Virus record (IMG/VR): IMGVR_UViG_3300042288_001682 | Coordinates: 1 to 54,077 of that record | Reading direction: 5' to 3' (one strand) | From: a virus | DNA length: 54,077 nucleotides | Shown: piece by piece, positions 1 through 12,021 of the stretch | Position numbering within the stretch: the first letter of the stretch is position 1 | How the letters are laid out: the number at the start of each line of letters is the position of its first letter | The notes under the pieces: generated by a model | The model's database searches: none | What the model was told of the DNA's origin: nothing | The model's input: only the letters and a program-made list of their open reading frames with translations | Program-made: the position numbers and the translations under genes

Positions 1-203
1 ATTTGTCCTTCTCTGAAGACCAAATCATTAACTAATTGTATTAGTTGTTGTTTGTTTTGTGCTTTATAAGCCCTATAATTAACGAATGGGAGGGAGTATT
101 CTACCCCATTACTAGAAGTAATTGTTGTATTATCCCCTCCAGTTTGGAATAAAATAGTCGTAATTGGCTGATTTTCGGTTGAGAATGATTGAAAGTTTTT
201 CAT
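1..203 (-). CDS. Hypothetical protein, C-terminus beyond window edge
   Basis: An open frame starts with ATG at 203 and runs off the left edge, giving 67 visible residues beginning MKNFQSFSTENQ. It is rich in Gln, Asn and Thr and has no membrane segment or recognisable motif. It is the most distal visible gene of the leftward left-arm cluster. The start lies in the context AAAATCATG, which several genes of this arm share, and there is no Shine-Dalgarno sequence. The shared start context and the open frame support a real gene. The function is unknown. Confidence 0.6.
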   Translation of the reverse strand, partial: MKNFQSFSTENQPITTILFQTGGDNTTITSSNGVEYSLPFVNYRAYKAQNKQQLIQLVNDLVFREGQ

Positions 204-340
204 GATTTTTTGTGATTGTTTTGTTTGGATAGGCAAAAGACAAGCTTTTGCCTAATAATCGAAGGTGACTTATTTAAATTCGTCAGGGTAAATATTGACT
301 ATTTACCCCTGAGTGCCTACGATTGTTTTGTTTGGGTATA
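204..340 (-). promoter_or_regulatory. Spacer with two hairpins and a duplicated A/C-rich 15-mer
   Basis: This gene-free spacer holds an inverted repeat at 231-253 (9-bp arms AGGCAAAAG and CTTTTGCCT) and another at 286-308 (8-bp arms GGGTAAAT and ATTTACCC). The 15-mer CCAAACAAAACAATC, read on the minus strand, occurs twice, at 214-228 and 321-335; the first copy lies in the leader of the gene that starts at 203. The hairpins could be processing sites, weak terminators or leader structures. The role is inferred from position only. Confidence 0.45.
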
Positions 341-796
341 TTATGGATGCCCTAAAACCTTCTCCAGTTCAAATGCGTATTTGAAATGATCAGGTGTTCT
401 TGTGGCTGTACCATTAATATTTGGAACCATTCTTAGCTTGTATATGTTTACAGCAAGCTTATAACGTTTAAGGAAAGGAATGCCAGTTGCTTTAAACAAC
501 TTGCCTTCCATAGCATCAACGTATAGTCTATGGTTCTGGTAAGAAATCTGTTCTTGGAAAAGATACGTTGTCTTTTCCTCAGAAGTTTCTTGTTGTGGTG
601 ATTCTTGTTTAACAGAATTGGTTTTGTTATCAATTCTGTGAACTATGCTGTTAAGAGCAAGAGTTCTGTCATCAATTACACCGAGTTGTTTATTGATGTG
701 TTTGTGGGTTTGAGTGAGTTGTTGGCTTAGTAAAACTAAGCCTGCGAAGATGATGAGGGCAAGAATGCCAGTGCATGCGATGATTGTGTTTTCCAT
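341..796 (-). CDS. Hypothetical membrane-anchored protein
   Basis: This 151-aa protein starts with a hydrophobic segment at about residues 4-23 (ACTGILALIIFAGLVLL), followed by a polar, probably helical stretch rich in Gln, His and Lys and then a basic C-terminal half. The layout suggests an N-terminal membrane anchor with the bulk on one side of the host membrane. The ATG lies in the context AAAAATCATG with no Shine-Dalgarno sequence. The upstream spacer carries two palindromes. The 1412-1897 gene nearby has the same anchor-plus-helix layout. No family was recognised. Confidence 0.6.
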   Translation of the reverse strand: MENTIIACTGILALIIFAGLVLLSQQLTQTHKHINKQLGVIDDRTLALNSIVHRIDNKTNSVKQESPQQETSEEKTTYLFQEQISYQNHRLYVDAMEGKLFKATGIPFLKRYKLAVNIYKLRMVPNINGTATRTPDHFKYAFELEKVLGHP

Positions 797-866
797 GATT
801 TTTGTGTTCTTGATTGTTGTAGACTAAAGTCTACTGGTAGATATGGGTTAAATTAACCCATTAGTA
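797..866 (-). promoter_or_regulatory. Spacer with two palindromes
   Basis: Between two leftward genes there is a 14-nt palindrome at 820-833 (TAGACT arms) and a 19-nt inverted repeat at 843-861 (8-bp arms around a 3-nt loop). Both lie in the leader of the gene starting at 796. They are either 5' leader structures or a terminator for the gene upstream. No gene is present. Confidence 0.4.
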
Positions 867-1370
867 TCAGAGATAGAGTTCTTCAATTACTTCAGTAGCT
901 ATTCGCATAGCTTCATCGTAATCATCAATATCCTTTATAACTCCACCTTTTAAGTTATTAACTTCATAAATATCGGTACGATAATATGAATAACTTATTA
1001 AGACTTCTGGTGTGAGTTTTCTTTTAACCCTGTAAGAAATTTCTGGTTCTTGATCAAAACCAGTTTCTTTTAGTATTGCCTCTCTAGCGAGAGGCAAGAC
1101 ATTAGTATTAAGGAAGTCCACAAAGAATGTTATAACTTCTTTGGGATCACTTAATTCAGGGTTAGGAAACTTATTAAAGAGAATCTTTTCAGTTTCCTTT
1201 TGATCAATCAGTTCATACTCTGTGAGTATCTCACTTTCTATAAGATCACAAAAAATGTTTTTTGTTCTCTCATGTGTATGATCTAAGTCAACGCTGTTAA
1301 GTATTGTAAGTAATTTAATGTGTTCAATTACTTGAGAGTGATTGTTGTGTTGTGTAGTAGGTGTACTCAT
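867..1370 (-). CDS. Hypothetical acidic soluble protein
   Basis: The gene encodes 167 aa with no signal peptide or membrane segment. The Asn/His/Thr-rich N-terminus (MSTPTTQHNNHSQ) leads into a mostly helical-looking acidic protein with many Glu, Ile and Leu residues, ending EVIEELYL. The ATG at 1370 is in the left-arm context AAAATCATG. It sits between two membrane-anchored proteins in the same direction. No family was recognised; a small host-takeover function is possible but this is only inferred from position. Confidence 0.55.
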   Translation of the reverse strand: MSTPTTQHNNHSQVIEHIKLLTILNSVDLDHTHERTKNIFCDLIESEILTEYELIDQKETEKILFNKFPNPELSDPKEVITFFVDFLNTNVLPLAREAILKETGFDQEPEISYRVKRKLTPEVLISYSYYRTDIYEVNNLKGGVIKDIDDYDEAMRIATEVIEELYL

Positions 1371-1391
1371 GATTTTGTTTGTGTGGTAGTA

Positions 1392-1413
1392 AGGAATGTC
1401 CTAGGACATTCCT
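1392..1413 (-). promoter_or_regulatory. 22-nt perfect palindrome in spacer
   Basis: The two 10-bp arms, AGGAATGTCC and GGACATTCCT, are separated by TA. The palindrome touches the stop codon of the upstream gene (ending at 1412) and precedes the ATG at 1370 by 21 nt. It could form a stable hairpin in the leftward transcript or be a dimeric protein-binding site. Which of these is true cannot be told from sequence. Confidence 0.45.
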
Positions 1414-1897
1414 ATAAGATGATGTTGCGATAAGGATTCTCTTCTACAGAGAAATCTCTTTTATCTTCTGGAAGCATAGATGCATGTGACCAGAATTGTG
1501 AATCAAGATAACCTATAAGAGAGGAATCGGTATTGGGATCTTCTTTGAGTTTCTCAATTTGAAGATAAGATTTCTTGAAAGTATCCCATACCTGTTCCTG
1601 ATTGATAACTGATTGTACTTTAATCTTATGAATAAGATTTGCGTACTTATCAATAATACCATTCAGTTTAGTTATAGAATTCTTTGATACAGCAATGAAT
1701 TCATTCTGTGCTGTAATAAGATTTAAGTTGGCATTGTGTGCATTGGTAAGCTTCTCAATAAGCTCTCTTTGATCAAGAAGAGTTTTCATCTGATCTTTGA
1801 TCAGATTGTTTGAGCTTTTGTTAAGGATGACAAAAGCGATTGTCATTAAGATGACGAAACCCGTAAGGGTAATGGTGATGATTGTATCTGTGTTCAT
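1412..1897 (-). CDS. Hypothetical membrane-anchored coiled-coil protein
   Basis: The chosen ATG at 1897 gives 161 aa; a TTG 15 nt upstream is possible but less likely. Residues about 5-24 form a transmembrane helix (TIITITLTGFVILMTIAFVI). A long amphipathic region with heptad-like Leu and Ile spacing follows (KDQMKTLLDQRELIEKL and onward), then a C-terminal part with Trp and Pro. This is a membrane-anchored coiled coil of unknown function, similar in layout to the 341-796 protein. The leader holds several inverted repeats. Confidence 0.6.
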   Translation of the reverse strand: MNTDTIITITLTGFVILMTIAFVILNKSSNNLIKDQMKTLLDQRELIEKLTNAHNANLNLITAQNEFIAVSKNSITKLNGIIDKYANLIHKIKVQSVINQEQVWDTFKKSYLQIEKLKEDPNTDSSLIGYLDSQFWSHASMLPEDKRDFSVEENPYRNIIL

Positions 1898-2070
1898 AGT
1901 AGTTGTTCTCAACGGGGTCGTATCCCTTCAGTGGTGTTAACCATAGGTTAAGCACCCATAATTTTAAAATAAAATTTACCGAAGGGATAATGGTGTTAAA
2001 ATTGGGTTAGGCACCCAAAATTTTTGAGACCACCAAACCATAGCTTAGTGGTCTCAATTGTAAAAGTGTT
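1898..2070 (-). promoter_or_regulatory. Hairpin-rich spacer with an imperfect direct repeat
   Basis: No gene is visible. There is a strong hairpin at 2024-2057 (10-bp arms TTGAGACCAC and GTGGTCTCAA). Two similar 25-nt units, each running from GGTGTTAA to GCACCC, lie at about 1933-1957 and 1992-2016. TCCCTTC and GAAGGGA also flank an AT-rich centre. The 2024-2057 hairpin is well placed to end transcription from the genes upstream, while the rest may be leader for the next gene. Confidence 0.45.
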
Positions 2071-2307
2071 TCAGACTAGTAAAGACTTGAACCTTTCGAG
2101 GTTCTTGCCTTTGATAATCACGCGGTTGTCCCCGCATGGGCTGTTGGTAATCAGTTGCTGACCCAACTTCCAATTGCCGGCTTGCTCGGCAATTTTGGAG
2201 ATCTCTGCTCTAGAGCACCATACTTCCAGAACTGGTTCTGAAAGGATCCTCTCACGAGCATGTGTGAAGCATACCTCAGTATGCTTTTGTTGGAATTGCA
2301 ATCTCAT
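2071..2307 (-). CDS. Hypothetical small soluble protein
   Basis: This 78-aa protein contains a hydrophilic N-terminus, a Trp-Cys pair (EVWCSRAEI) and a basic C-terminus (VIIKGKNLERFKSLLV). Its ATG overlaps the stop of the upstream gene in an ATGA junction (2304-2307), so translation is probably coupled. It is the last gene of a compact leftward operon starting at 3443. Codon use and base composition are richer in GC than in the left-most genes. The function is unknown. Confidence 0.55.
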   Translation of the reverse strand: MRLQFQQKHTEVCFTHARERILSEPVLEVWCSRAEISKIAEQAGNWKLGQQLITNSPCGDNRVIIKGKNLERFKSLLV

Positions 2308-2633
2308 GATGGATCACCATAAATAGATGCTTGCTCATGACCATATCCCGTAAAGCGGTGACCTGGACTTGGACGACCTGCCATAGGTGGCTCATCGCTA
2401 TCGTCAAAGTCTCCTGGGAGATCTCCTTCCGCACCTGGAAAGTTTATTGCTTCAGCATCTGGCGGGACTATTCCCGCACATTCGTCTGAGCAGAAGTCCC
2501 CTGCTGGGTAACCAACTAGGACTTCACTTACGTATCCACATACTGTGCAGGTATGTGTGGTAGTCATGTCCTTAGAGGACGTAGGGACGAGATTGGTTGC
2601 GTCAAATGCGCTCACCAAGGGAGTTGCAAACAT
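2304..2633 (-). CDS. Small zinc-finger-like protein with shared left-arm N-terminal motif
   Basis: The 109-aa protein has a four-cysteine cluster at about residues 29-51: CTVCGY, then FCSDEC. This is a CxxC...CxxxC arrangement typical of a small zinc ribbon or knuckle. The C-terminal half is acidic and rich in Pro and Gly. The first 20 residues belong to a motif shared with the proteins starting at 3443, 3905 and 4559; at DNA level its codons resemble those of the 4559 gene over about 38 nt. The 3' end overlaps the next gene by ATGA. Zinc binding is inferred. Confidence 0.6.
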   Translation of the reverse strand: MFATPLVSAFDATNLVPTSSKDMTTTHTCTVCGYVSEVLVGYPAGDFCSDECAGIVPPDAEAINFPGAEGDLPGDFDDSDEPPMAGRPSPGHRFTGYGHEQASIYGDPS

Positions 2634-2639
2634 AGTAGT

Positions 2640-2810
2640 TTACTTAGGGTTGTACCCGAAATCGGGTACAAAGGATTGAGGGGAGAATGAGCAATAAGTG
2701 CTCTTACTCCCAAAGGGACTAGAATCGCAAGCTCGCTTGCGTAGGGCTACTACCCCTATTACGCAGAATGCGAGTAGGAATAGTCCGAAGCATAGCTTAC
2801 CCTTGTTCAT
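2640..2810 (-). CDS. Small one-pass membrane protein
   Basis: This 56-aa frame begins MNKGKLCFGLFLL, has one hydrophobic helix at about residues 5-23, then a basic stop-transfer stretch (LRKRAC) and a Ser/Pro-rich tail. Its ATG overlaps the stop of the upstream gene as ATGA (2807-2810), the same coupling used elsewhere in this operon, which is the main reason to believe it. Its 3' end contains a 9-bp inverted repeat (2650-2671) whose hairpin lies just before the next gene. The function is unknown. Confidence 0.5.
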   Translation of the reverse strand: MNKGKLCFGLFLLAFCVIGVVALRKRACDSSPFGSKSTYCSFSPQSFVPDFGYNPK

Positions 2811-2953
2811 AACCACCTACCAAAGATAGGTAGCATGATGTGTTCGTCAATGAACACAAAGATTGTAGTGGCATAGGTTGCTAGTACTAGCATGACCAAA
2901 GCCATTGCTAGTACTAGGACAACTTGCCCAAAGGGGGTAAGACGATCAAACAT
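2807..2953 (-). CDS. Small one-pass membrane protein
   Basis: The 48-aa product starts MFDRLTPFGQ and has a long hydrophobic helix (VVLVLAMALVMLVLATYATT, about residues 11-31), followed by a short amphipathic tail. The start is chosen because ATG at 2953 overlaps the stop of the upstream gene by 8 nt. A longer in-frame extension would run backwards through that gene and is rejected. It lies in a tight leftward operon between two other small genes. The function is unknown; its position and topology would allow a role at the host membrane. Confidence 0.55.
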   Translation of the reverse strand: MFDRLTPFGQVVLVLAMALVMLVLATYATTIFVFIDEHIMLPIFGRWL

Positions 2954-3443
2954 CGCTTTCCTCACCCTTCCAGTCGAGACCTTCTGGTGCTGTACCACCA
3001 GTTGGATCGTAAAACCGATCCGTTTCAAATGCGGTCTTCCCGCATTCTGCGATATAACATGGATCGCATTGATCCACGTCTTCGCATTCGTTAAGGAATA
3101 AGCCACCGCAGTCCCCACATTTGCACATGTGCAAATGTCTTTGGAATTTGAACTCCAAACTTGGAGGGAGATTAAGGGGCAAAAACCCGAAGGCGGTAAG
3201 GTCGCCCATCAGGTTTATGTGACCTATGTCCTTTTGGGGCATAAGCTTCCAATTAACTCCATCCTTGGAACGGGCAAAATATCTCCCGTTTACGAACAGA
3301 CCGAGAAAGTCGCTGTTTAACGAACCTCTCATGTCAATGGTCATGTCTTGAACTGTGAAGCTCAAGATCGTAAATACATCTTGTCCTGTGGACGTAGTGG
3401 ATATCGCTGCGTTAAGAACGCGCGCGCAAAGTTCTGATAACAT
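2946..3443 (-). CDS. Small protein with C-terminal zinc-ribbon-like cluster
   Basis: The protein has 165 aa. Residues about 1-20 carry the N-terminal motif shared by four left-arm proteins (LNAAISTTSTG). A central beta-rich region (FVNGRYFARSKDGVNW) follows, and the C-terminal third holds many cysteines: CKCGDC, then CEDVDQCDPC, then C. Such paired CxxC clusters suggest one or two bound zinc ions. The start at 3443 follows AAAATC with no Shine-Dalgarno sequence. It heads a five-gene overlapping cluster. No family could be named. Confidence 0.6.
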   Translation of the reverse strand: MLSELCARVLNAAISTTSTGQDVFTILSFTVQDMTIDMRGSLNSDFLGLFVNGRYFARSKDGVNWKLMPQKDIGHINLMGDLTAFGFLPLNLPPSLEFKFQRHLHMCKCGDCGGLFLNECEDVDQCDPCYIAECGKTAFETDRFYDPTGGTAPEGLDWKGEESDV

Positions 3444-3473
3444 GATTTTAATTTTACCGACTCAAATAAAAGG

Positions 3474-3499
3474 AAATAATCCCCGTGAGGGGATTATTT
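3474..3499 (-). terminator. Strong hairpin, likely terminator between leftward genes
   Basis: The 11-bp arms (AAATAATCCCC and GGGGATTATTT) flank a 4-nt loop. On the minus strand the stem is followed by TTCCTTTTATTTG, a T-rich tail. It lies between the stop at 3510 and the next start at 3443, so it fits an intrinsic terminator or attenuator. Confidence 0.55.
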
Positions 3500-3509
3500 C
3501 GATGGGAAA

Positions 3510-3905
3510 TTAGATCTTGAACAGATCTAGCTTTACACGCCATAGTTCTGGCGTGACGTTGAACATCCCAACTGGTTCAAGCTCACCAATCGGTTCAAAC
3601 AAACTGGAACCATTGGTTCGTAACCAATGCACCAATGTTTGGTTCTCGCTCCAGGTTTTGACGACGATCTGGTTCTCCGACCTGGATCGGATCACCTGCT
3701 CTTCGCTGAAGTCCTCTGGCTCCAATGCCGTTGTTAAACGTGCATAGGGTTCGCCTTGCTTCGTGTAAACCTGGACAGCAATCTGTCCGTTTACGTACTC
3801 CTGGAACTGGAACGCATAGTTCCCAAGAGTAACGGTCTTGCCAGCAATTACGCTAGGAGTGTTGAATGCGGCTGCGCGAACGCTCGCCTTTTTACATGTT
3901 GCCAT
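3510..3905 (-). CDS. Hypothetical protein with shared left-arm N-terminal motif
   Basis: The 131-aa start at 3905 (MATCKKASVRAAAFNTPS) is chosen because it is preceded by GTACAATC exactly as is the start at 4559, and because the longer frame would begin inside the neighbouring gene. The body looks beta-rich, with regular hydrophobic-polar alternation (YAFQFQEYVNGQIAVQVY). It shares GGCGAGCGTT and CGCAGCC in its first codons with the 4559 gene. It has no cysteine cluster and no membrane helix. The function is unknown. Confidence 0.55.
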   Translation of the reverse strand: MATCKKASVRAAAFNTPSVIAGKTVTLGNYAFQFQEYVNGQIAVQVYTKQGEPYARLTTALEPEDFSEEQVIRSRSENQIVVKTWSENQTLVHWLRTNGSSLFEPIGELEPVGMFNVTPELWRVKLDLFKI

Positions 3906-3931
3906 GATTGTACCTATTGAAAACGTAAAGG

Positions 3932-3957
3932 GAATAGTACCCGTTAGGGTACTATTC
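3932..3957 (-). promoter_or_regulatory. 11-bp-stem hairpin in leader
   Basis: GAATAGTACCC and GGGTACTATTC flank the loop GTTA. It lies between the stop at 3970 and the ATG at 3905 and closely resembles the hairpin at 3474-3499 in stem length and loop size. On the minus strand it is followed by CCTTTACGTTTTC, so weak termination is possible. Confidence 0.5.
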
Positions 3958-3969
3958 TGGTGTGCCTCC

Positions 3970-4194
3970 TTAAAGCTTGCCCCCATTGATGGTGGTATTC
4001 TGCTGACTAGTCTTGTCTGCCAGATCCGCGAGGATCTGGTGCACACGGGCACGACTAGCCTCCGTTGCCTTGCTCAACCTAATGTCTGCTACATCAGACA
4101 CCTGGTTGAACTTCTTCCTACCGAAGAAGCAGACCGCAATTGCGGTTACTGCTCCTACGATGAACGCGACGATGAGTTGTACCAGGGTGCTCAT
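3970..4194 (-). CDS. Small membrane protein
   Basis: This 74-aa protein has an N-terminal transmembrane helix (residues about 6-24, QLIVAFIVGAVTAIAVCFFG), a basic stop-transfer segment (RKK), then an amphipathic helix rich in Ala, Ser and Arg. Its ATG overlaps the stop of the 4559 gene as ATGA (4191-4194), so it is translationally coupled to it. It is one of at least five small membrane proteins in the left arm. No family was recognised. Confidence 0.55.
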   Translation of the reverse strand: MSTLVQLIVAFIVGAVTAIAVCFFGRKKFNQVSDVADIRLSKATEASRARVHQILADLADKTSQQNTTINGGKL

Positions 4195-4559
4195 GCGGAC
4201 ACCTTCTTACCAAGCACGAATGTGACAGGGTTGATGTGACGTAGCCACATCACTGGTGTTGGTGCGTTGATGTTAGCAACCGAACTCACATATGATGAGA
4301 ACACCTTAGTCCACATGGGATTGTCCATACCATCAACCACATGGTAGCAGTTGAGTTCTGTACCAGCAGGGAATCGTCCTTCCCAATTGCTATTAAAGAA
4401 GGTAGCGAATCGTACCTTCTCGTCTGTAGTCACGTTGACCACATACACGAAGTCACCTTCTGTGACCATGATGTGCTGGGCATCTACTTGCCCAACGAAT
4501 GTCTTGACCTCAGAGGTCGTAGTGATGAGATTGGCTGCGTTGGTAACGCTCGCCGTCAT
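4191..4559 (-). CDS. Hypothetical beta-rich protein with shared N-terminal motif
   Basis: The start at 4559 (MTASVTNAANLITTTSEV) gives 122 aa; another ATG lies 12 nt upstream. The inner ATG is preferred because its context GTACAATC is identical to that of the 3905 gene. The body (IMVTEGDFVYVVNVTTDEKVRF) looks like a small beta-barrel. It is the first gene of the leftward cluster next to the divergent control region, so its promoter should lie in 4,560-4,800. The function is unknown. Confidence 0.6.
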   Translation of the reverse strand: MTASVTNAANLITTTSEVKTFVGQVDAQHIMVTEGDFVYVVNVTTDEKVRFATFFNSNWEGRFPAGTELNCYHVVDGMDNPMWTKVFSSYVSSVANINAPTPVMWLRHINPVTFVLGKKVSA

Positions 4560-5107
4560 GATTGTACACATGGTATACCTGGGTTTGAAGCATAAGACTA
4601 ACGCTTACGCTCCGAAACCCCAAGTCGCAGACGTGACGGAAAAGAATCTGAAACGTAGTTTCGATTCTTTTACCATACCGAAGGTTGGGCGAACACGCAG
4701 TGGAGCAAAAAGACCCTGGCCCTTGTAAATCAAACCACCCCCTATTATATATCCTATATACATTGATAAAATTAATTCTGGGTTCTAGGTATGGAGAATA
4801 AAATTATTCCCTAGAAAATTACCCCTGGGGTCTTAGAAACACCCCACCCCATCTGTATATGTTGGTATGGGTAGAAATTAATTAAACCCCCCTCCTTCAG
4901 ACCCTTACTTTGTTTTACTTACTCACCCTGCGGGTGGTAAACAAACAAGTTTGCATTTACTCAATTTATATTCTATAAATTGGCAATGCAATTTATTAAA
5001 TTGCATTACTCACTTTGTGTAAACACAAACTGGTAAAATAAGTTTTACTTATTTTTACTCTATTTAAATAACTGGTATTATTTACCAATTATTTTATAGG
5101 TTTTTTT
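4560..5107. promoter_or_regulatory. Divergent gene-free control region rich in hairpins
   Basis: No convincing gene is present in these 548 bases, which separate the leftward left arm from the rightward early genes. Near the left end is a long hairpin at 4640-4671 (AAAAGAATC plus GAAAC paired to GTTTC plus GATTCTTTT, one bulged T). The middle is very AT-rich with TATA-like stretches at about 4743-4760. A nested inverted repeat lies at about 4781-4817 (TTCTAGG with CCTAGAA). The right part holds the repeated hairpins annotated separately. The region should contain promoters for both arms and might also be a replication origin; the latter is speculation. Confidence 0.6.
4919..5087 (+). repeat. 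Array of four TTACTC-palindrome-TGG hairpin units
   Basis: TTACTC occurs at 4919, 4957, 5006 and 5055. Each copy is followed by a palindrome of different sequence and then by TGG or GTGG: CACCC-TGC-GGGTG; CAATTTATA-TTC-TATAAATTG; TTTGTG-TAAA-CACAAA; TATTTAAATA. In units 1, 3 and 4 the outer TTAC can pair with GTAA or GTA. The arm AATGCAA of the second hairpin can also pair with the TTGCATT at 5001-5007, so the second and third structures exclude each other. The array ends 20 nt before the first rightward start. Confidence 0.55.
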
Positions 5108-5473
5108 ATGAATAGCGGCAAAGCCATAACCAATACTCCTCCAGCCACATGGGGAAAAGAGTATTCTAACACTACAAAAATTATTTCCCCTGATGTTCAG
5201 GTTGCCCAAGGCAAAACATTTGATAAAGCATTTTCTGATGTTTGCCTTTTGAATCTTGCATGTGAAAAGGCTAAAGAAGACTTTAGGTATATTGTATCAA
5301 AGCGGAACAGTATAATGGGGTTCTCTAAATGTGAAGGTAAAGTTTTTGCATACCTACCTTGCAATGAACCTCTCCTCAAACAACCCAAGTCAGTTAAGTT
5401 TATTTCGGAGCATGCTATTGTAGCACCAAGTGAATTAGAAAAAGAAATTTGGTTTGTTGTAAAATACCCCTAA
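5108..5473 (+). CDS. Hypothetical protein, first rightward gene
   Basis: This 121-aa protein begins MNSGKAITNTPPATWG and has a central helical segment with cysteines (VCLLNLACEKAKEDF) and a predicted beta C-terminus ending VVKYP. There is no signal peptide or known motif. The ATG follows a run of T residues (GGTTTTTTT) with no Shine-Dalgarno sequence. It is the first gene right of the hairpin array and so is the one most likely to be controlled by it. The function is unknown. Confidence 0.6.
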   Translation: MNSGKAITNTPPATWGKEYSNTTKIISPDVQVAQGKTFDKAFSDVCLLNLACEKAKEDFRYIVSKRNSIMGFSKCEGKVFAYLPCNEPLLKQPKSVKFISEHAIVAPSELEKEIWFVVKYP

Positions 5474-5484
5474 CTTTTTTGTAG

Positions 5485-5506
5485 TTTTTTACGTATACTA
5501 TATTGT
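5485..5506 (+). promoter_or_regulatory. Promoter-like element giving a near-leaderless start
   Basis: TTTTTTACGTATACTATATTG lies directly before the ATG at 5507. The core TTTTTACGTATA-n-TAT is repeated before the ligase reading frame (12,551-12,566), and ACGTATATAA occurs before the gene at 9870. If TATACT is the -10 box, transcription would begin within a few bases of the ATG. No separate -35 box is clear. Confidence 0.5.
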
Positions 5507-6247
5507 ATGTTAGAAAATTACAACGACCCCTGGATTGGTGTTGACCTTGACGGGACATTAGCTGAACATTTACCTGAGTTTGATATAAGTAAAATTGGCC
5601 CACCCATTCCTGCAATGGTAAGCACAGTTAAAAGTTATTTGGCTAATGGTAAGAAAGTAAAAATCTTTACTGCCAGAGCATCCCTTATTTTTGATTTATC
5701 TTGGGATGAATATAATGCACAAGTAAAGGAACCTATAGATGAATGGTGTAGAATCCATATAGGTGAAGCACTCCCAATTACATGTTCAAAAGATTTCTAT
5801 ACCATAGGTATAGTTGATGACATTGCCGTACATGCCTATAAGGGAGATATTTATAATGCTGGGACACACCTAGCATTGAAAGCACAGTTTGACCACTTAC
5901 AAGAAAAGTATAATAAGTTAGAAATACAGGTAAGTAATTTACAAGAGGATATTGCCTACCGAGACATAGCTATAACAAGCCTTAAAGTAGATGTTAAGGA
6001 GAGGAGTCAAAGTCTGGTAGAGATGATTTTTGCGGAAAACCCTAGAGTGGATAAGATCACTAAAGAAACAATTGAATATCTTCAAAAAGATATTGAAGAC
6101 TTAAAAGAAATCATTAAAAACTACGCTGATGATGAAAAGCAAAGACAAGAACAAGAAAGAAAAGTTCAAGACGTATCTGAAATGCTCAGAGGAAGTTGGA
6201 AACCAAAAGGAAATTGGGATTTAAACCAACAAGAAAACACACAATAA
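5507..6247 (+). CDS. HAD-superfamily phosphatase-like protein with coiled-coil tail
   Basis: In the 246-aa protein, residues about 6-115 match the HAD hydrolase fold: motif I is GVDLDGTLAEH (DxDGT, the first Asp being the nucleophile), motif II is IFTARAS, and an acidic motif IVDDIAV comes near residue 105. HAD enzymes of this type remove phosphates from nucleotides, nucleic-acid ends or small metabolites; the substrate cannot be told. Residues about 125-225 form a long charged coiled coil, unusual for a simple HAD enzyme and suggesting oligomerisation. The gene has its own promoter-like element ending at the start codon. Confidence 0.75.
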   Translation: MLENYNDPWIGVDLDGTLAEHLPEFDISKIGPPIPAMVSTVKSYLANGKKVKIFTARASLIFDLSWDEYNAQVKEPIDEWCRIHIGEALPITCSKDFYTIGIVDDIAVHAYKGDIYNAGTHLALKAQFDHLQEKYNKLEIQVSNLQEDIAYRDIAITSLKVDVKERSQSLVEMIFAENPRVDKITKETIEYLQKDIEDLKEIIKNYADDEKQRQEQERKVQDVSEMLRGSWKPKGNWDLNQQENTQ

Positions 6248-6263
6248 TTACTCTCTCAGAAAC

Positions 6264-6518
6264 ATGGAAAACTTAAAAGAATTAATTGATAATAACTACG
6301 GAATTTTAATCTGTAAAGGTGCTACTGTAAAGGAGTCACAAATAGAAGAAGATGACTTTACTGCTAGGATATTTAAACACCCATTTGTAGAAGGAACAAT
6401 ATCTTACATGATATTTTCAAAAGACTTAGATGAAGTTATGGAAGCGTTGTCCAACGTTACTTTAGAAGCTGTTGAGCTATCAATAAATAACCCCACATAT
6501 ATAGAAAATGAAGATTGA
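6264..6518 (+). CDS. Hypothetical small acidic protein
   Basis: This 84-aa acidic protein (MENLKELIDNNYGILICKG) alternates short strands and helices and has no motif that could be named. It follows the HAD-like gene after 16 nt. Its last codons overlap the next start by 11 nt, indicating a polycistronic early operon. The function is unknown. Confidence 0.55.
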   Translation: MENLKELIDNNYGILICKGATVKESQIEEDDFTARIFKHPFVEGTISYMIFSKDLDEVMEALSNVTLEAVELSINNPTYIENED

Positions 6519-6894
6519 TCACGAACGTGTCATTATTGACATTAAAATTGAAAAAGGTGAGCATGATTTTTTTACTGGTATAGATCTTAGTAAATATATA
6601 CAAACATCAATAAGATCACAGCACAATGGTAAAACTTATAAAAGTTATTATTTAGTAAACCCCGAACTACGTTATTCTTGTTTAAGATTAGAAGATGTTG
6701 TTCTTGATGTGATAACTGACCAAGTAAAGGACCATGTTAAAAAACATTTAAAAACTATTGATTTAGATACCCTTGGTCTGACTATTGTTCCTCACGCCTT
6801 AATGGATAAAGATAAGGGTATACTTTTAAATACGGAGACTGGACAATATGTTGCTGGTTTTAATATTGGAGAAAGTAATGGGGATAAAACTTAA
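6508..6894 (+). CDS. Hypothetical protein
   Basis: The gene encodes 128 aa starting MKIDHERVIIDIKIEKGEHD. The N-terminal half looks beta-rich (KTYKSYYLVNPELRYS) and the middle forms a charged helix (VITDQVKDHVKKHLKTI). No catalytic motif is visible. It overlaps the gene before by 11 nt and the small gene after by 17 nt. Such overlaps are common in this arm and support the reading frame. The function is unknown. Confidence 0.55.
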   Translation: MKIDHERVIIDIKIEKGEHDFFTGIDLSKYIQTSIRSQHNGKTYKSYYLVNPELRYSCLRLEDVVLDVITDQVKDHVKKHLKTIDLDTLGLTIVPHALMDKDKGILLNTETGQYVAGFNIGESNGDKT

Positions 6895-7021
6895 ACAAGA
6901 AACTGAGGAACAAAAAGTATACATGGCATTTATAGAAAAGACTACAAAGATTGTACAGGCATGGCCTGAGTGGATGAAGTGTTTAGCTCCACATATTAAG
7001 GAAAATAAAAATGAAATTTAA
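6878..7021 (+). CDS. Very small protein in early operon
   Basis: The 47-aa frame MGIKLKQETEEQKVYMAFIE... fills the only gap in this part of the operon. It overlaps the genes on both sides (17 nt before, 11 nt after). It is a charged helix followed by an AWPEWMKC turn. A Trp-Pro-x-Trp segment in a short phage protein is suggestive of a protein-binding peptide, but no family can be claimed. Support comes from the exact fit between its neighbours. Confidence 0.5.
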   Translation: MGIKLKQETEEQKVYMAFIEKTTKIVQAWPEWMKCLAPHIKENKNEI

Positions 7022-7463
7022 AGGAAGTGTGGACTTAGTACAAATATATGATGGGATGCAAAACTATAGTGCCGAACTCAAATTAGTAGAGGGCGGAGAC
7101 GTTATTTTAAAAGTTGATGGAATGCCAGATGCTGTATTAAGTTATATAGGCCCACTTTATATTAAGTTTGCTATTCCATGTACACAAAAATCATATCCAC
7201 TTAATTATAATGAGGGATGGGGTACAAATGTAGAATTTGGTATTATTCCTAAAATTACAGAATCAAAATCAGCTTCTATACCTAGAAAAGGAAAAACAAT
7301 TGAAGAAACTGTTGGGGAATTAAGTGAAGATGATGTTAGGGAAAGATGTATTGGTTTAGCTAACATGGTTGAAAGACAACAGGGAGAAATCAATAAACTA
7401 ACAATGGAGTTAAAAGAAATCAAAGATTATCTAAAAGAAAATGAAGAAGCACTTGATAAGTAA
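7011..7463 (+). CDS. Hypothetical protein, paralogue of the 8748-9188 product
   Basis: This 150-aa protein begins MKFKGSVDLVQIYDG and resembles the 146-aa protein at 8748-9188 in the MKF(K/R)G-V start, the following beta-rich domain of about 90 residues, a GWG or GMG-containing turn, and the C-terminal coiled coil (RCIGLANMVERQQGEINKL against EFIALAKRLERKEKEIKRL). The two are probably diverged duplicates. The coiled coil suggests oligomers. The 3' end overlaps the lipoprotein gene by 23 nt. Confidence 0.6.
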   Translation: MKFKGSVDLVQIYDGMQNYSAELKLVEGGDVILKVDGMPDAVLSYIGPLYIKFAIPCTQKSYPLNYNEGWGTNVEFGIIPKITESKSASIPRKGKTIEETVGELSEDDVRERCIGLANMVERQQGEINKLTMELKEIKDYLKENEEALDK

Positions 7464-7782
7464 ATTTATTCTAGCATTTTGTTTATATATTTGTTGTGGG
7501 TGTAATAACCCTTCTCCCCCACCAAGTATAACACTTTACATGAAAGAAGATGAAAAAAGTGTTTTCTCTAAAATCACAAGACAACCAGATGCGGTAATTT
7601 TAAAAGGAGAGATTACAGAATACCATTGGGAAGGAGTAGGAAGTGACATCCCTATATTTCAAACTACTGGAGCAAGGCAACTACATTTTAAAGATGGTAA
7701 GCTTGTAAGCTATAAGTACCTTTGGGATAATGTAACTGTAAAAACATTAAAGAATGAAAAAATACTTAATATACGAAATTGA
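7441..7782 (+). CDS. Putative phage lipoprotein
   Basis: In this 113-aa protein, Lys residues are followed by a hydrophobic stretch (FILAFCLYICCGC) and a plausible lipobox ending at a Cys near residue 21, then Asn-Asn-Pro. This is a typical type II signal peptide, so the mature protein would be lipid-anchored on the outer side of the host cytoplasmic membrane or in the outer membrane. Phage lipoproteins often block superinfection or take part in lysis; neither is proven here. The rest is a small beta domain. Confidence 0.6.
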   Translation: MKKHLISKFILAFCLYICCGCNNPSPPPSITLYMKEDEKSVFSKITRQPDAVILKGEITEYHWEGVGSDIPIFQTTGARQLHFKDGKLVSYKYLWDNVTVKTLKNEKILNIRN

Positions 7783-8125
7783 AGAAGTTACTAATGAACA
7801 CAAAGATGGGAGAGTTATTTATAAGTACCCATTTGGTGATCGCATAAAATGGAATGGTGAAGTTTGGGTGTGTTTGGATCTTCCTGATGATAAATACACT
7901 CATGGACACCACTATAAGGACAATGTAGTTACCCACCACCTTCCTAATGGTCCAATATCCCCTGATCAAGCTGTTGAGGTTGAGGAGTGCCGTATAGAGA
8001 AAATCAATGTTGCATGGGGTAGATCGCATGATCTTGGGGTTGTTAACCCTGGACCATCGTATGATCCGTACGTCTACCTAGAAGGCACCAAAGTAGGTGT
8101 ATTTGAAATACCAACAAAGAAATGA
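7754..8125 (+). CDS. Hypothetical protein
   Basis: This 123-aa soluble protein is rich in aromatic and His residues (KYTHGHHYKDNVVTHHLPNG), which might bind metal, but the spacing fits no family I can name. It overlaps the lipoprotein gene by 29 nt and the next gene by ATGA. It is an internal member of a tightly packed early operon. The function is unknown. Confidence 0.55.
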   Translation: MKKYLIYEIEEVTNEHKDGRVIYKYPFGDRIKWNGEVWVCLDLPDDKYTHGHHYKDNVVTHHLPNGPISPDQAVEVEECRIEKINVAWGRSHDLGVVNPGPSYDPYVYLEGTKVGVFEIPTKK

Positions 8126-8499
8126 GTTTAGGAAATTTAAATAGTTTAAAACTCAGGGCATGGGCTAGGGATGTTAGAATTGCTTTTGGTGGTAATATCT
8201 ATTTAGTTGGATCAGCCACCAAAACTAAAGAATGGAGAGACGTAGATGTAGTTTGTATGCTTAACCTAGAAGAATATACAAAACTTTTTGGAGATTCATA
8301 TGGACATGGAAACTTAAAATGGGAAGTACTTTGTACAGCAGTTTGTATTTGGGGAACAGAAGTAACTGGACTACCAATTGATTTTAAATTCCAAGAAATT
8401 GAATTAGCAAATGAAACACATAAAGGAAATCGAGAACCTTTATCTACTTCGCTTGACACTATAAAAAAAGGATATCCCTTAAGAACAGATAAAAAATGA
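8122..8499 (+). CDS. Nucleotidyltransferase-fold-like small protein
   Basis: Residues about 26-45 of this 125-aa protein read LVGSATKTKEWRDVDVVCML. This matches the polymerase-beta-type nucleotidyltransferase signature: a Gly-Ser at the end of a strand, then DxD (here RDVDVV), the metal-binding Asp pair. A later acidic residue, FKFQEIE, could supply the third carboxylate. Minimal proteins of this fold transfer NMP to proteins or RNA. The match is from motif only and the target is unknown. It overlaps both neighbours by ATGA. Confidence 0.55.
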   Translation: MSLGNLNSLKLRAWARDVRIAFGGNIYLVGSATKTKEWRDVDVVCMLNLEEYTKLFGDSYGHGNLKWEVLCTAVCIWGTEVTGLPIDFKFQEIELANETHKGNREPLSTSLDTIKKGYPLRTDKK

Positions 8500-8732
8500 A
8501 GAAAATAACATTAGTAACAATGGATGATTGGACAGCTGTTTACGTTAACGGTAAGTTAATGGCAGAGAACCATAGCGTTAGTAATGATGAATTACTAAAG
8601 GTCTTAGGTATATCGTATGAGAGTATTACACTTGAAGATGATACATGTATTATGGACTTTCTACCACAAAAACTTGAAGATTTGGATAAAATAGAAAACG
8701 TAAAGTTAACTAGAGAATTCAGAAGCAATTAA
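8496..8732 (+). CDS. Hypothetical small acidic protein
   Basis: The 78-aa protein starts MKKITLVTMDDWTAVYVNGK, which looks like a two-stranded hairpin with a turn at NG, followed by helices rich in Glu, Leu and Asp. The ATG overlaps the stop of the nucleotidyltransferase-like gene by ATGA. No signal peptide or motif is present. The function is unknown. Confidence 0.55.
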   Translation: MKKITLVTMDDWTAVYVNGKLMAENHSVSNDELLKVLGISYESITLEDDTCIMDFLPQKLEDLDKIENVKLTREFRSN

Positions 8733-8747
8733 AAGGAAAACATAAAG

Positions 8748-9188
8748 ATGAAATTTAGAGGAGTTGTAACATCAGCACAAAAGGTAGATGACAGGATACT
8801 GTGTGAAGCAGAGGTAACCCCATTCTTCCACCCATACGTAGAAGATTACAAAAATCATCTGCTTGTTGAGGGTGCTCAAGACGTAGTTATAGAAAGGTTT
8901 AAACCTATGGAACTTAGTTTTACCGTACCGCAAGGTAATGGGGAGAATAATAGTCTCTACTCCCACAAAGGTGGGATGGGAATTATGGTGACATTGGATA
9001 TAGCATCTGATGAACCAGAACTAAGTCCAGAGACAATTGAATCTATTGAAAAAGCTGACCCTAAAGATCTTGTAAAAGAATTTATTGCATTAGCTAAAAG
9101 ACTAGAGCGAAAAGAAAAAGAAATCAAAAGATTAAACGAAGAACTAGAAAGCTTGTATACAGTAAAAGAACATTATACGGCAACATAA
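8748..9188 (+). CDS. Hypothetical protein, paralogue of the 7011-7463 product
   Basis: The 146-aa protein starts MKFRGVVTSAQKVDD. It shares its start, domain order and C-terminal coiled coil with the 150-aa protein 1.3 kb upstream. The last 45 residues are strongly charged heptads (LERKEKEIKRLNEELESL). The leader AAAAGGAAAACATAAAG contains a weak purine-rich site. The function is unknown; a duplicated early protein that forms coiled-coil dimers is the most that can be inferred. Confidence 0.6.
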   Translation: MKFRGVVTSAQKVDDRILCEAEVTPFFHPYVEDYKNHLLVEGAQDVVIERFKPMELSFTVPQGNGENNSLYSHKGGMGIMVTLDIASDEPELSPETIESIEKADPKDLVKEFIALAKRLERKEKEIKRLNEELESLYTVKEHYTAT

Positions 9189-9290
9189 TACCACACAACA
9201 AAGGAACATAATACCGCAAGGTATATTATACAACGAAGGGTCGTAGATATGAGCACGTTAGTGCCATTAAATACGACAAAGGAGTGTTTA

Positions 9291-9482
9291 ATGACAACAG
9301 ATGCAAAATTAGATTTATTAAAAGAAATGAATGCCGAGCTACAATTGGCAATTGAGACAGTACTTGCTGATGCAAGGTTTGCTACACTAGCAAGCAAGTT
9401 TAAAATAAAAGTAACAAACGAAGTGGACCTTGGCGGTGTTATTGAGAACCCGAAATTATCAGCTAGTTTGTCTGTAAAGTGA
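9291..9482 (+). CDS. Hypothetical small helical protein
   Basis: The start at 9291 (MTTDAKLDLLKEMNAELQLA, 63 aa) is preferred because AAAGGAG lies six bases upstream, one of the best Shine-Dalgarno sites in this arm. An in-frame ATG at 9249 would add 14 residues. The protein is mostly helical, with a short C-terminal beta segment ending SLSVK. The 60 bases before it contain repeated AACGAAGG/AACAAAGGA-like purine tracts. The function is unknown. Confidence 0.5.
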   Translation: MTTDAKLDLLKEMNAELQLAIETVLADARFATLASKFKIKVTNEVDLGGVIENPKLSASLSVK

Positions 9483-9488
9483 TAAATA

Positions 9489-9857
9489 ATGCGATTAGAG
9501 CAATACCCAACAACTTTATCAGACACCATCCACGAGCTCGTTGCTTATTTAGTTGTATCTGATAAACCACCATTAATAGGTGTATTGGTACCTAAAATGG
9601 AACATGGGAGAGACTTCATCAGAGATTTAAGGTCTGCACTTTACAAGAAAGGACTAGAACATTTATATACCCACAATAAGTTTATAATATCTGATTATGG
9701 GTCCCTTTCAGACAAGTTTAGAGGGTACGACCTTGATCTATTTATAAATGTATTAGACTTAAACTATCCTAATCACCCTAAAAGAGTTGATTTAGATGAA
9801 ATTTATTATAAATGTAGGCTAGAAAAGAAAAATATAGTTACTGTTATTAACTTTTAA
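9489..9857 (+). CDS. Hypothetical protein
   Basis: This 122-aa protein begins MRLEQYPTTLSDTIHELVAY and looks like an alternating alpha/beta fold (LIGVLVPKMEH; KFIISDYGSL; DLFINVLDLN). The alternation of parallel-strand-like segments and helices resembles small Rossmann-type domains, but there is no glycine-rich nucleotide loop. It follows the previous gene after 6 nt. A promoter-like element overlaps its stop codon and serves the next gene. The function is unknown. Confidence 0.5.
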   Translation: MRLEQYPTTLSDTIHELVAYLVVSDKPPLIGVLVPKMEHGRDFIRDLRSALYKKGLEHLYTHNKFIISDYGSLSDKFRGYDLDLFINVLDLNYPNHPKRVDLDEIYYKCRLEKKNIVTVINF

Positions 9858-9869
9858 ACGTATATAACT
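9857..9869 (+). promoter_or_regulatory. Possible ACGTATA promoter element
   Basis: ACGTATATAACT immediately precedes the ATG at 9870. It resembles the ACGTATACTATAT and ACGTATAATATAG elements before 5507 and 12,574, although the upstream T-run is shorter here. It would give a leaderless or nearly leaderless transcript. Confidence 0.35.
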
Positions 9870-10160
9870 ATGATGACTATTGCAGAATACAAACCACAAC
9901 CACCTATGACTAACGAATACGCAAACAATAATAAGCACGACATTGAAATTAAATATTTCTATGCAAAAGATGATTATGAGTTTCAAAATGAACCAGTTAA
10001 AGTAATTATTAAAACGATTACAACTTCTGTAGAGGATACTCCAACACATACATATGAAGCTACTGAAAACGTAAAAGAATATGTAGAAGAAATGTTAAAA
10101 GTGTTTAATCTAGCTACAAGAATTGGAAAAGTTATTACACTACAAGTATCTGAGGAATAA
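9870..10160 (+). CDS. Hypothetical protein, last gene before a terminator
   Basis: The 96-aa product starts MMTIAEYKPQPPMTNEYANN, contains a beta-rich middle (VKVIIKTITTSVED) and ends in an amphipathic helix. A strong intrinsic terminator follows 10 nt after its stop, so it closes the first rightward operon. No motif was recognised. Confidence 0.55.
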   Translation: MMTIAEYKPQPPMTNEYANNNKHDIEIKYFYAKDDYEFQNEPVKVIIKTITTSVEDTPTHTYEATENVKEYVEEMLKVFNLATRIGKVITLQVSEE

Positions 10161-10170
10161 AAAGTATTAG

Positions 10171-10192
10171 GGAGCCAAAAGCTCCCTTTTTA
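10171..10192 (+). terminator. Rho-independent terminator
   Basis: GGGAGC and GCTCCC pair around a short A-rich loop and are followed by TTTTT. It lies between the stop at 10160 and the next start at 10206. Confidence 0.85.
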
Positions 10193-10205
10193 ATGAGATA
10201 ATATA

Positions 10206-10475
10206 ATGGACGGATTAAAAGAAGGACTATCTACTTTTAAGAATAATTTAGATGGCAATTTAAAAGGCAAAGCAAAGTGCTTTAATGATATTCTGGAAAA
10301 CCACGGTGAATGTCAAATTGTTCTTGCTTCTGGAACTATTCATTCCCTTCACTTAGGTGATAAGGGATATTTTGATGAATCGGTTGTTACATATGCTGAC
10401 AAAGAAGGTAACTATATTTGTATCTTCTGGGATCAAGTAGAATCTGTTAACTTCCACTTAGGGTACAAGGATTAA
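10206..10475 (+). CDS. Hypothetical protein
   Basis: This 89-aa protein has a helical N-terminus (MDGLKEGLSTFKNNL) and a beta-rich C-terminal part (CQIVLASGTIHSLHLGD; YICIFWDQVESVNFH) that could be a small barrel. It starts 14 nt after the terminator and is followed after 3 nt by the next gene. No clear Shine-Dalgarno sequence is present. The function is unknown. Confidence 0.55.
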   Translation: MDGLKEGLSTFKNNLDGNLKGKAKCFNDILENHGECQIVLASGTIHSLHLGDKGYFDESVVTYADKEGNYICIFWDQVESVNFHLGYKD

Positions 10476-10478
10476 TAT

Positions 10479-11372
10479 ATGAAAGACGCACTAACACCAG
10501 CTAACGTTACTTTTATTGTTGAAAACAATGATAGGGTCTTAACACGATTAGACACTGTTACAGGGTTTAACATTGACCTTCAAGAAGATAACAACCTCAA
10601 ATTAGATTTAGAAGTTGTCTATACTACAACTCCAGAAACAAACGATCAACTAACAATAAATAATTTAAATGAAGATGAACTACTAAGGCTTTATATTGTC
10701 CTAGGTTATTCTGTTTATGTTGTTGGTGGGTGGATTGAAACAAAGAATCTTGGGTTATCTGCATCAGTTCCTGACTCTGTTATTACTGCACGTATTGAAG
10801 TAATTGGAGAGTATGAAGTTGTAGATATGAAGCACCTTGAAAACATTACTTCATATTTAGCTAAGGCTGTTAAGGAAGAAACTGAAGCACTACAAGCAAT
10901 ACACAATGAAATCATTAACAACTTTAATGAACGCAACAATACAGAACACACAAGCTTTGAAGACTTGTTAGGTTCTATTAATAACAATGAAAATACTGGG
11001 TGTTGTGGCAATAACGGTTGTGGTTGTCAAGATACTGTAACCACAGTAACAGCTTATCCAGAAAACCTGATTACAAATGCTGATCCAGGTGATGAAACAA
11101 AGTATGAATCAGAACCAAAAGTTATGTCTTTTGAGGTAACTAAAGGAAATCTTTCAAGAACTACTGACACATTAAAAGAGCTATTCAAAGCATGTGACGT
11201 AAAATGGATTAGCTTAGTTGACGACTTACCAGAAGTTGAAGGCTTTGAACCTGCATCTATGCTTTACCAATACTTTAAAGAAGCACATCTTTTAGGGTTG
11301 TTAGTACAAATGGCGGATATTTTACATGGAGAGGATAGAGAAAACGTATTTCTTTATGTCTATTATCGGTAA
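10479..11372 (+). CDS. Hypothetical protein with cysteine-glycine knuckle
   Basis: This is the largest protein of the early right arm, 297 aa. The N-terminal half is beta-rich (FNIDLQEDNNLKLDLEVVYT), a helix spans about residues 125-155, and around residues 174-183 there is a dense Cys/Gly motif (GCCGNNGCGCQ). The C-terminal third is helical. Four clustered cysteines could bind a metal ion. A strong terminator follows. No family was recognised. Confidence 0.6.
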   Translation: MKDALTPANVTFIVENNDRVLTRLDTVTGFNIDLQEDNNLKLDLEVVYTTTPETNDQLTINNLNEDELLRLYIVLGYSVYVVGGWIETKNLGLSASVPDSVITARIEVIGEYEVVDMKHLENITSYLAKAVKEETEALQAIHNEIINNFNERNNTEHTSFEDLLGSINNNENTGCCGNNGCGCQDTVTTVTAYPENLITNADPGDETKYESEPKVMSFEVTKGNLSRTTDTLKELFKACDVKWISLVDDLPEVEGFEPASMLYQYFKEAHLLGLLVQMADILHGEDRENVFLYVYYR

Positions 11373-11406
11373 AACACAATAAAAATCCAATAATTTAAGC
11401 AAATTA

Positions 11407-11437
11407 AGCAGATTTTTCAAAAAATCTGCTTTTTTTG
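11407..11437 (+). terminator. Rho-independent terminator
   Basis: AGCAGATTTTT and AAAAATCTGCT form a stem closed by a very short loop, followed by a run of seven T residues. It ends the operon finishing at 11372. The remaining 190 bases up to the first tRNA are AT-rich and contain TTGACA at about 11515, a possible -35 box for the tRNA array, but no gene. Confidence 0.85.
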
Positions 11438-11625
11438 TAAAAAAATCTCTCTCTATGTGAAAACAATGGAACTTTTTTAAATAAAAATCGTTACATTATA
11501 TATAAACTAGAACTTTGACAATTTAATACAGCTTTTAATCCGAAAATCGTCCAATCCTCATGGACGACAATTAAAAAAGGGTTTCCTTATTGTGGGGTTT
11601 TCTACCTTTCCCCACTCGCGATTTA

Positions 11626-11702
11626 TCTGGATATAGCTCAGTTGATAGAGCGGGGCCTTTGGGAGGCTCAGGTCGCTGGTTTGAGCCCAGCTATTCAGAC
11701 CA
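11626..11702 (+). tRNA. tRNA-Pro(UGG)
   Basis: A complete 77-nt cloverleaf is present. The acceptor TCTGGAT pairs with ATTCAGA, the D-arm is AGCTCAGTTGATAGAGC, and the anticodon loop is TTTGGGA with anticodon TGG. The 3' CCA is encoded. It is the first tRNA of the array. Confidence 0.9.
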
Positions 11703-11707
11703 AGTTT

Positions 11708-11798
11708 CCTCTAGCATGGTAGAGGACAGGGTGACACACCATCTTTGTAGTATTTTCGTAGTGTTGTCACCCATTTTTAAGGGTTTGGATTGTCCTCT
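11708..11798 (+). ncRNA. Strongly structured non-tRNA segment in tRNA array
   Basis: Two stacked 8-bp helices can form: AGAGGACA (11721-11728) with TGTCCTCT (11791-11798), and directly inside it GGGTGACA (11729-11736) with TGTCACCC (11765-11772). An 18-nt one-sided bulge and a 28-nt loop remain. An alternative 6-bp hairpin, CCTCTA with TAGAGG (11708-11725), competes with the outer helix. It fits no tRNA cloverleaf. It may be a small RNA, a processing signal or a decayed tRNA. Confidence 0.4.
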
Positions 11799-11837
11799 TT
11801 GGGTTTTATAACTTGCAATGGTACCAAACCGAAACTG

Positions 11838-11860
11838 AGGTTCAGTGCGCTGAACCTTTT
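11838..11860 (+). terminator. Hairpin with short T tail
   Basis: AGGTTCAG and CTGAACCT flank the loop TGCG and are followed by TTT. It lies directly before tRNA-Asp. It may be a processing or pausing element rather than a terminator, because the array continues. Confidence 0.4.
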
Positions 11861-11862
11861 AC

Positions 11863-11938
11863 GCATCTATATTGTGGAGGAACTGCATACCACTCTGTCA
11901 CAGTGGAGGTCCGGGGTCAGTACCCGGTAGGTGCGCCA
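11863..11938 (+). tRNA. tRNA-Asp(GUC)
   Basis: GCATCTA pairs with TAGGTGC. The anticodon stem CCACT/AGTGG encloses the loop CTGTCAC with anticodon GTC. The T-arm is CCGGG-GTCAGTA-CCCGG and the end is GCCA. The D-stem is weak and the T-loop lacks the usual TTC start, so this is a divergent but foldable tRNA. Confidence 0.8.
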
Positions 11939-11946
11939 TTTTTTGT

Positions 11947-12021
11947 GAGGGGTAGTGTAGGATGTACAGGTCGGTCTCCAAAACCGTACCTCAAGGGTTC
12001 GAATCCCTTACCCACTCGCCA
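11947..12021 (+). tRNA. tRNA-Trp(CCA), divergent
   Basis: The loop CTCCAAA carries anticodon CCA. The T-arm AAGGG-TTCGAAT-CCCTT is normal and CCA is encoded. The acceptor GAGGGGT pairs with ACCC-A-CTC only if one A bulges out. The D-arm is short and the first anticodon-stem pair is a T-T mismatch. It may be functional but weak. Confidence 0.7.

Follow-up and report, generated by a model that had tools for sequence, protein, structure and literature searches.

Does a chain of short hairpins between two divergent gene arms of a phage act as RNA or as DNA and, if as RNA, on which strand? This question is raised by a locus in the IMG/VR virus record IMGVR_UViG_3300042288_001682, of which the whole stretch analysed, 54,077 nucleotides, is referred to here as the window. 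A preliminary description had pointed to repeated TTACTC boxes opening hairpins with changing stems, just ahead of the first rightward gene. In our analysis, this array (Table 1) probably works as leftward RNA.

Gene content (terminase, portal, tail sheath) identifies the window as part of a large tailed dsDNA phage, and 12 tRNA genes are present. A second IMG/VR contig, G001 (118,098 bp), shows 100% identity across window 13073-54077 and thus represents the same phage; it ends short of the array. Portals of phages other than G001 (80 of 112 kept) share 23-34% identity in their best segments. The terminase large subunit at window 22085-25531 is split by intein and homing endonuclease domains, and the protein of window 43475-45133, which has a weak head-protein match, holds by eye a Hint (intein-type)-like insertion. 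Near the tail genes, residues 1363-1513 of a 2062-aa protein (window 47375-53563) match PHROGs named RecE-like exonuclease and CRISPR/Cas system associated. A GroEL-like chaperonin is encoded by the same phage (L135 13339-15024).

Table 1 Window coordinates of the array, its parts and the flanking features
Feature	Position	Strand	Details
Hairpin-saturated leftward gene tract	1..4650	-	at least 4.6 kb; extends past the left end of the window
Unstructured gap, array to leftward genes	4651..4880		about 230 nt; putative promoter region
Multi-hairpin array	4905..5097	-	probably works as leftward RNA
TTACTC box 1	4919..4924	+	
TTACTC box 2	4957..4962	+	
TTACTC box 3	5006..5011	+	
TTACTC box 4	5055..5060	+	shares bases with the -35 hexamer of a weak promoter-like match (5054-5081)
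Closing box TGGTAA	4935-4940	+	
Closing box TGGCAA	4981-4986	+	
Closing box TGGTAA	5031-5036	+	
Closing box TGGTAT	5073-5078	+	
Hairpin A1	4924..4936		5 bp, loop 3
Hairpin B1	4942..4953		5 bp, loop 2
Hairpin A2	4962..4982		9 bp, loop 3
Hairpin B2	4985..5007		11 bp, loop 1
Hairpin A3	5014..5029		7 bp, loop 2
Hairpin B3	5035..5055		9 bp, loop 3
Last hairpin	5065..5094		perfect 7-bp stem 5065-5084 and helix 5066-5077/5083-5094, overlapping competitors
13-bp outer helix	4948-4960 with 5019-5031	minus RNA	tandem G-U pairs; encloses A2 and B2, excludes A3 and B1
First rightward gene	5108..5473	+	121 aa, no known family

The units of the array follow the order TTACTC, hairpin A, TGGYAW, hairpin B. 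The four boxes were found at the spacings given before (38, 49 and 49 nt), and a box followed by a hairpin with a changing stem recurs in every unit, although each unit holds two hairpins and not the single one described. The frame TTACTC...TGGTAA, said to persist throughout, is exact in two of the four units and present in all four only as the TGGYAW variant. Across 4924-5084 there are seven consecutive perfect stems, 5-11 bp long and closed by loops of 1-6 nt, and the right end of the array lies about 10 nt upstream of the start codon at 5108. At the last hairpin the minimum-energy fold takes the longer helix, which on the minus RNA has 12 bp, one of them G-U. A general closing stem of TTAC and GTAA was considered and discarded, as it is highly probable around hairpin A only in unit 1.

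The hairpin chain is not a product of chance. Stems of at least 6 bp total 43 bp in the array; dinucleotide shuffles gave a mean of 6.4 and a maximum of 27, and none of 1000 was as high. Fold z scores over 4900-5107 were -5.9 for plus RNA, -8.5 for minus RNA and -8.1 for plus ssDNA, and the minus-strand value of -9.9 at 4951 is the lowest among all 150-nt windows on both strands of the contig. No other 200-bp segment of the window is as dense in hairpins as the array (41 bp, runner-up 34), which keeps a narrow lead of 43 over 42 bp (at 2984) when looser loops are admitted. The TTACTC boxes by themselves are only mildly unusual. Some hexamer occurred four times in 289 of 1000 shuffles and did so at spacings of at least 20 in 34 of 1000, while the window holds no excess of TTACTC (25 observed, 36.8 expected); the repeated hexamer is thus weak evidence.

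A mutually exclusive pair of hairpins had been proposed as a switch. The 5-bp outer stem 4951-4955/4987-4991 does clash with the 11-bp hairpin 4985-5007, but the switch is weak: the penalty for forcing the outer stem is 1.7 kcal/mol for plus RNA and 4.7 kcal/mol for minus RNA, and the exclusive fold is therefore possible, not favoured. The 13-bp outer helix on minus RNA is predicted to lie 0.9 kcal/mol apart from the 5014-5029 hairpin and would make a better, more balanced switch candidate.

Beyond an unfolded interval at 4651-4880, the array is followed by leftward genes, the folding of which was compared with that of sequences whose synonymous codons were permuted within each gene, so that protein and codon usage were kept (randomisation of PMC7063772). 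All eight leftward genes tested (341-4571) were more folded than each of 60 synonymous permutations, with sense z scores of -3.6 to -8.4; of 35 further window ORFs, picked mechanically, the lowest sense z was -3.6, in one of 413 codons. The excess folding per 40 nt amounted to -2.22 kcal/mol in the left arm, -0.29 in 18 other (right-arm) genes and -1.71 in MS2. Perfect hairpins numbered 30 in the leftward genes, compared with 5.6 +/- 2.1 and a maximum of 11 in 200 permutations. Per kilobase, the mean fold z over 1-5000 ranged from -2.6 to -3.7 on the minus strand and from -1.7 to -2.6 on the plus strand; in each kilobase from 5001 on it lay between +0.3 and -1.3 (minus) and between +0.3 and -1.7 (plus). 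The rest of G001 contains no comparable tract and no kilobase below -2.0. In the mRNA of the leftward genes, hairpin folding is predicted to reach roughly the density of an RNA phage genome; for a DNA virus this would be out of the ordinary.

The 4680 nt of the left arm hold 48 perfect hairpins (stem of at least 6 bp, loop of 3-8 nt), 35 of them inside ORFs, at a median spacing of 80 nt. Neither the base composition of their loops nor their closing pairs showed a bias, and shape rather than sequence therefore seems to be kept. The genes starting at 4559, 3443 and 2633 on the minus strand have, by eye, similar first 75 nt with a hairpin at a common position and differing stems. To judge from the sequence, these hairpins and the array appear to share one principle. 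The ORF truncated at the left window end has its ATG at 203.

The start sites of the left arm have a context of their own. A Shine-Dalgarno-like sequence was found at none of 10 left-arm starts, as opposed to 15 of 40 in the right arm, and AATCATG occurs at six of the 10. The region from -50 to -26 was more paired than the arm mean at six of nine left-arm starts. The 20 nt upstream were more open on average (unpaired 0.59-0.64, arm mean 0.41), but right-arm starts showed a milder opening as well (0.52-0.63, against 0.47), so that this trait is not specific to the left arm.

RNA and DNA were discriminated by the energy gained from G-U pairs, strand by strand, with hairpins planted in shuffled or permuted sequence as a control that models DNA palindromes. 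When G-U pairs were left out, the left-arm genes were equally folded on both strands (z -13.6 and -14.9), as perfect palindromes require. G-U pairs contributed -184 to their leftward strand and -149 to the opposite one, as compared to -152 and -222 in the planted controls; the resulting strand difference of -35 (planted, +70 +/- 25) was reached in none of 20 controls. MS2 RNA gave the same G-U direction (0 of 20 controls), and like MS2 the left-arm genes retain G-U pairs on their sense strand. In the array the G-U gain was -10.4 kcal/mol on the minus and -0.5 kcal/mol on the plus strand. Planted controls reached a strand difference as large in four of 500 cases and the gap between minus and plus energy in two of 500; taken singly, the minus gain was reached in 10 and the plus loss in 52 of 500. 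Among plain shuffles, 13 of 400 had as large a strand difference and 165 of 400 the minus gain alone. The array result depends on six G-U pairs. At C4984 (in TGGCAA), opposite A5008 in the B2 helix, the plus strand has an A-C mismatch (probability 0.00) and the minus strand a G-U pair (0.99). Since G-U pairing persists in the leftward RNA but has been lost from the complementary strand, the test favours a folded leftward RNA over DNA cruciforms. The asymmetry indicates selection on leftward RNA, with modest evidence in the case of the array. The earlier suggestion that shape, as RNA or cruciform, matters more than stem sequence was thus supported and narrowed towards RNA. The difference between sense and antisense z scores was dropped as direct proof of selection on RNA and replaced by the planted control, because base composition explains part of it.

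The same asymmetry makes it unlikely that the array is a DNA-level element, be it a cruciform or hairpin promoter for a phage RNA polymerase, an operator cluster or a replication origin. Perfect, close-looped stems, with which both strands fold well, would suit such an element, as would the location between divergent arms. GC skew changes from -0.07 at 4001-5000 to +0.05 at 5001-6000, and the cumulative skew has a shallow minimum near 5 kb; skew is positive again at 1-2000, and so small a sign change would also arise from divergent transcription, is confounded by the divergent genes and speaks neither for nor against an origin. The early promoters of phage N4 likewise are hairpins with partly free stems (PMC4496689), and the array resembles them in that the hairpins preceding early genes vary in their stem bases. 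An N4-type promoter, however, is described as a short hairpin with a 3-nt loop and a conserved GC-rich heptamer at -11 (PMC4496689), whereas loops and stems differ in every unit of the array, which has no common loop or stem and no conserved heptamer. It is also at odds with a DNA-level element that coding sequence is filled with the same kind of hairpins. A search for an N4-type virion polymerase returned no polymerase match for the 1309-aa and 2062-aa proteins of the window or the 2634-aa and 1572-aa proteins of G001; the 1309-aa protein has a DFDGD motif. The latter protein (window 15731-19660, minus strand) looks by eye RNA polymerase beta'-like or HAD-like around its MDFDGDM motif, had no homologue in our searches and gave an uninformative single-sequence AlphaFold model of 400 residues (pLDDT 36).

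The perfection of the stems could also be a mutational by-product, template switching having turned imperfect repeats into perfect hairpins with no selection on RNA. The excess does lie in perfect stems, and one-mismatch stems are few in the left arm: eight in 4650 nt, as compared to 45 in 34,000 nt of late genes and 23 in the 3569 nt of MS2. A symmetric DNA process should nevertheless deplete G-U pairs on either strand alike, but on the leftward one they persist beyond all 20 controls, which renders this origin improbable.

A leader RNA of the rightward gene had been the use implied for the array. Transcribed rightward, the array would control the 5108 gene by leader hairpins or a switch, and it indeed stops about 10 nt ahead of that start codon. 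The plus RNA is strongly folded too (z -5.9), and the 5108 gene itself has slight structure in the sense strand (z -1.9, antisense +0.7). The signal nevertheless sits on the leftward (minus) RNA, plus-strand G-U pairing being low, and the best plus-strand promoter-like match, at 5054-5081, would initiate downstream of most of the array. A role as rightward leader is therefore rather unlikely. A sigma-70 reading was abandoned, as promoter-like matches were no more frequent than chance (five found, 3.3 expected). The motif TTTTACGTATAMTATAKTGTA is common to window positions 5487 and 12551, at 5487 just upstream of the 5507 gene, and is a possible phage promoter; it is absent from the array.

The extent to which the left arm stands out was assessed among phages fetched for other reasons, which form no random sample. 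The 2727 mechanically called ORFs of at least 75 codons (eight of 2735 were dropped for ambiguous bases) include some second copies, since pieces of G001 repeat window DNA; their mean excess was -0.30 kcal/mol per 40 nt, and six of the eight left-arm ORFs were among the 16 lowest. Only the left arm had a run of more than three consecutive ORFs below -1.2 (eight, mean -2.28), the next being three in L059. For perfect hairpins in 5698 overlapping 2-kb bins (3.18 Mb, window copies included), the left arm ranked first with 10.3 times the expectation, followed among other phages by a best bin at 6.8 times. When 1083 bins were scanned for plus-strand folding, none but those of MS2 fell below the best bin of the window (-2.45); a bin of G007 at -2.16 falls among the weaker left-arm bins. 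The genes in that region of G007, a distant relative (L267 9000-13000), reach z scores of -3 to -4. Strong folding also occurs elsewhere, with z scores of -8.4 (740 codons) and -5.0 (398 codons) in L206, -6.5 (535 codons) in L059, and -5.3 (161 codons, inside the left-arm range) and -5.4 (788 codons) in L262, and single ORFs of L025 and L062 reach -2.8 and -2.6 kcal/mol per 40 nt. Genes of other phages that are folded beyond their synonymous permutations lie at L206 1705-5139, L059 4111-7349 and L262 6367-6852.

Selection for local folding of mRNA has been described as a general trait of coding sequences, with the use of within-gene synonymous permutation and 40-nt windows (PMC7063772). With the same permutation and window size, the left arm reaches -2.22 kcal/mol as opposed to -0.29 and -0.30 for the right-arm genes and the phage ORFs. 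It resembles RNA viruses such as MS2 in that local folding pervades the coding RNA and exceeds that of synonymous permutations, at kilobase scale and to a similar degree. Unlike in RNA viruses, this folding lies in one operon of a dsDNA myovirus; the virus is dsDNA by gene content, not an RNA genome as in RNA phages, and its left arm comes from one assembly. Unlike those of MS2, the left-arm hairpins are perfect and close-looped, at 8.7 to 12 times the independent-base expectation versus four times in MS2. Viral mRNA structures in general are covered in PMC6563262, and a partial literature search, which proves little, found no report of a dsDNA phage operon folded at this level.

A further alternative is an assembly chimera, in which window 1 to about 4.9 kb would be foreign, e.g. 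RNA-virus-derived, and joined to the phage. The sole record covering the left arm and the array is IMGVR_UViG_3300042288_001682, with G001 matching at 100% only from 13073, and the left arm deviates in GC (0.46-0.48 at 2-5 kb), start context and folding. GC within the left arm itself varies from 0.34 to 0.48, however, and its ORFs are numerous, short and orphan, a picture known from early regions of phages. Eight left-arm ORFs had no PHROGs match below E 0.04, and none is thus recognisably from a known prokaryotic RNA virus. Moreover, the G-U polarity of the left arm recurs in the array, which lies across the gap on the side of the phage. We regard a chimera as improbable.

Relatives of the locus were sought at several levels. 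Nucleotide searches of phages, near (1-20000) and distant (1-5107), gave no homologue of the array, and comparison of the array with its own record and with three records, as well as of an exact 22-base piece with IMG/VR, gave nothing homologous. The frame pattern occurs at a minimum of 120 loci in IMG/VR; in the 128 matches at the listed loci the largest two-gap stem sum was 10, as compared to 9, 17 and 15 for window units 1-3. Two of these loci were set aside as a tandem repeat (L006) and, by eye, a coding repeat (L060). Protein scans requiring exact 8-residue matches, in IMG/VR with 5507, 5108, 2949 and 870 and in GTDB genomes with 4194, gave no left-arm homologue for the three left-arm queries (2949, 870 and 4194, of eleven ORFs), nor did tblastn of phages with 2949. 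The eleven left-arm ORFs had no homologue in the fetched loci, the ORF cut by the left end having been compared in the wrong frame. No homologue of 5108 was found in the 35 records searched, and the 5507 protein matched at E <= 0.1 in two of the 35, one of them clear and at a contig edge. Taken together, these searches yielded no relative spanning the locus. An Rfam search returned only tRNA above the gathering score in the window.

The explanation that we prefer, though we hold it at somewhat less than even confidence, is that the array is a chain of short-range hairpins acting as folded leftward RNA and bordering a hairpin-saturated leftward operon. Coding and intergenic RNA of this operon would be saturated with perfect short hairpins, with the array at the right edge as a multi-hairpin leader or upstream segment of the folded leftward transcript. 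This supposes that the array is transcribed leftward and that it serves one function together with the leftward genes. Stem sequences would be free because only pairing is selected. The role might be physical protection and pacing of the mRNA, which would resist RNases specific for single strands or RNA-guided defence, while the start codons presumably keep open windows for ribosomes. Against a leftward RNA counts that the array adjoins a rightward start codon and not a leftward one; as the gap at 4651-4880 is unfolded, the leftward promoter may lie there, which would exclude the array from the leftward mRNA.

Strongly ordered RNA structure in coding sequence is linked with RNA viruses. We tentatively propose, short of an even chance, that this phage has an operon, 4.6 kb or longer, with an mRNA that is folded along its whole length at RNA-phage strength and headed by a multi-hairpin leader, the transcript being an evolved structural object, an armoured or otherwise physically handled RNA, and more than a message. 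If true, a DNA-phage operon folded at MS2 strength beside weakly folded genes would offer an internal control on the purpose of such structure, for which RNase resistance, escape from RNA-guided defence, translation pacing and RNA packaging would be the candidates.
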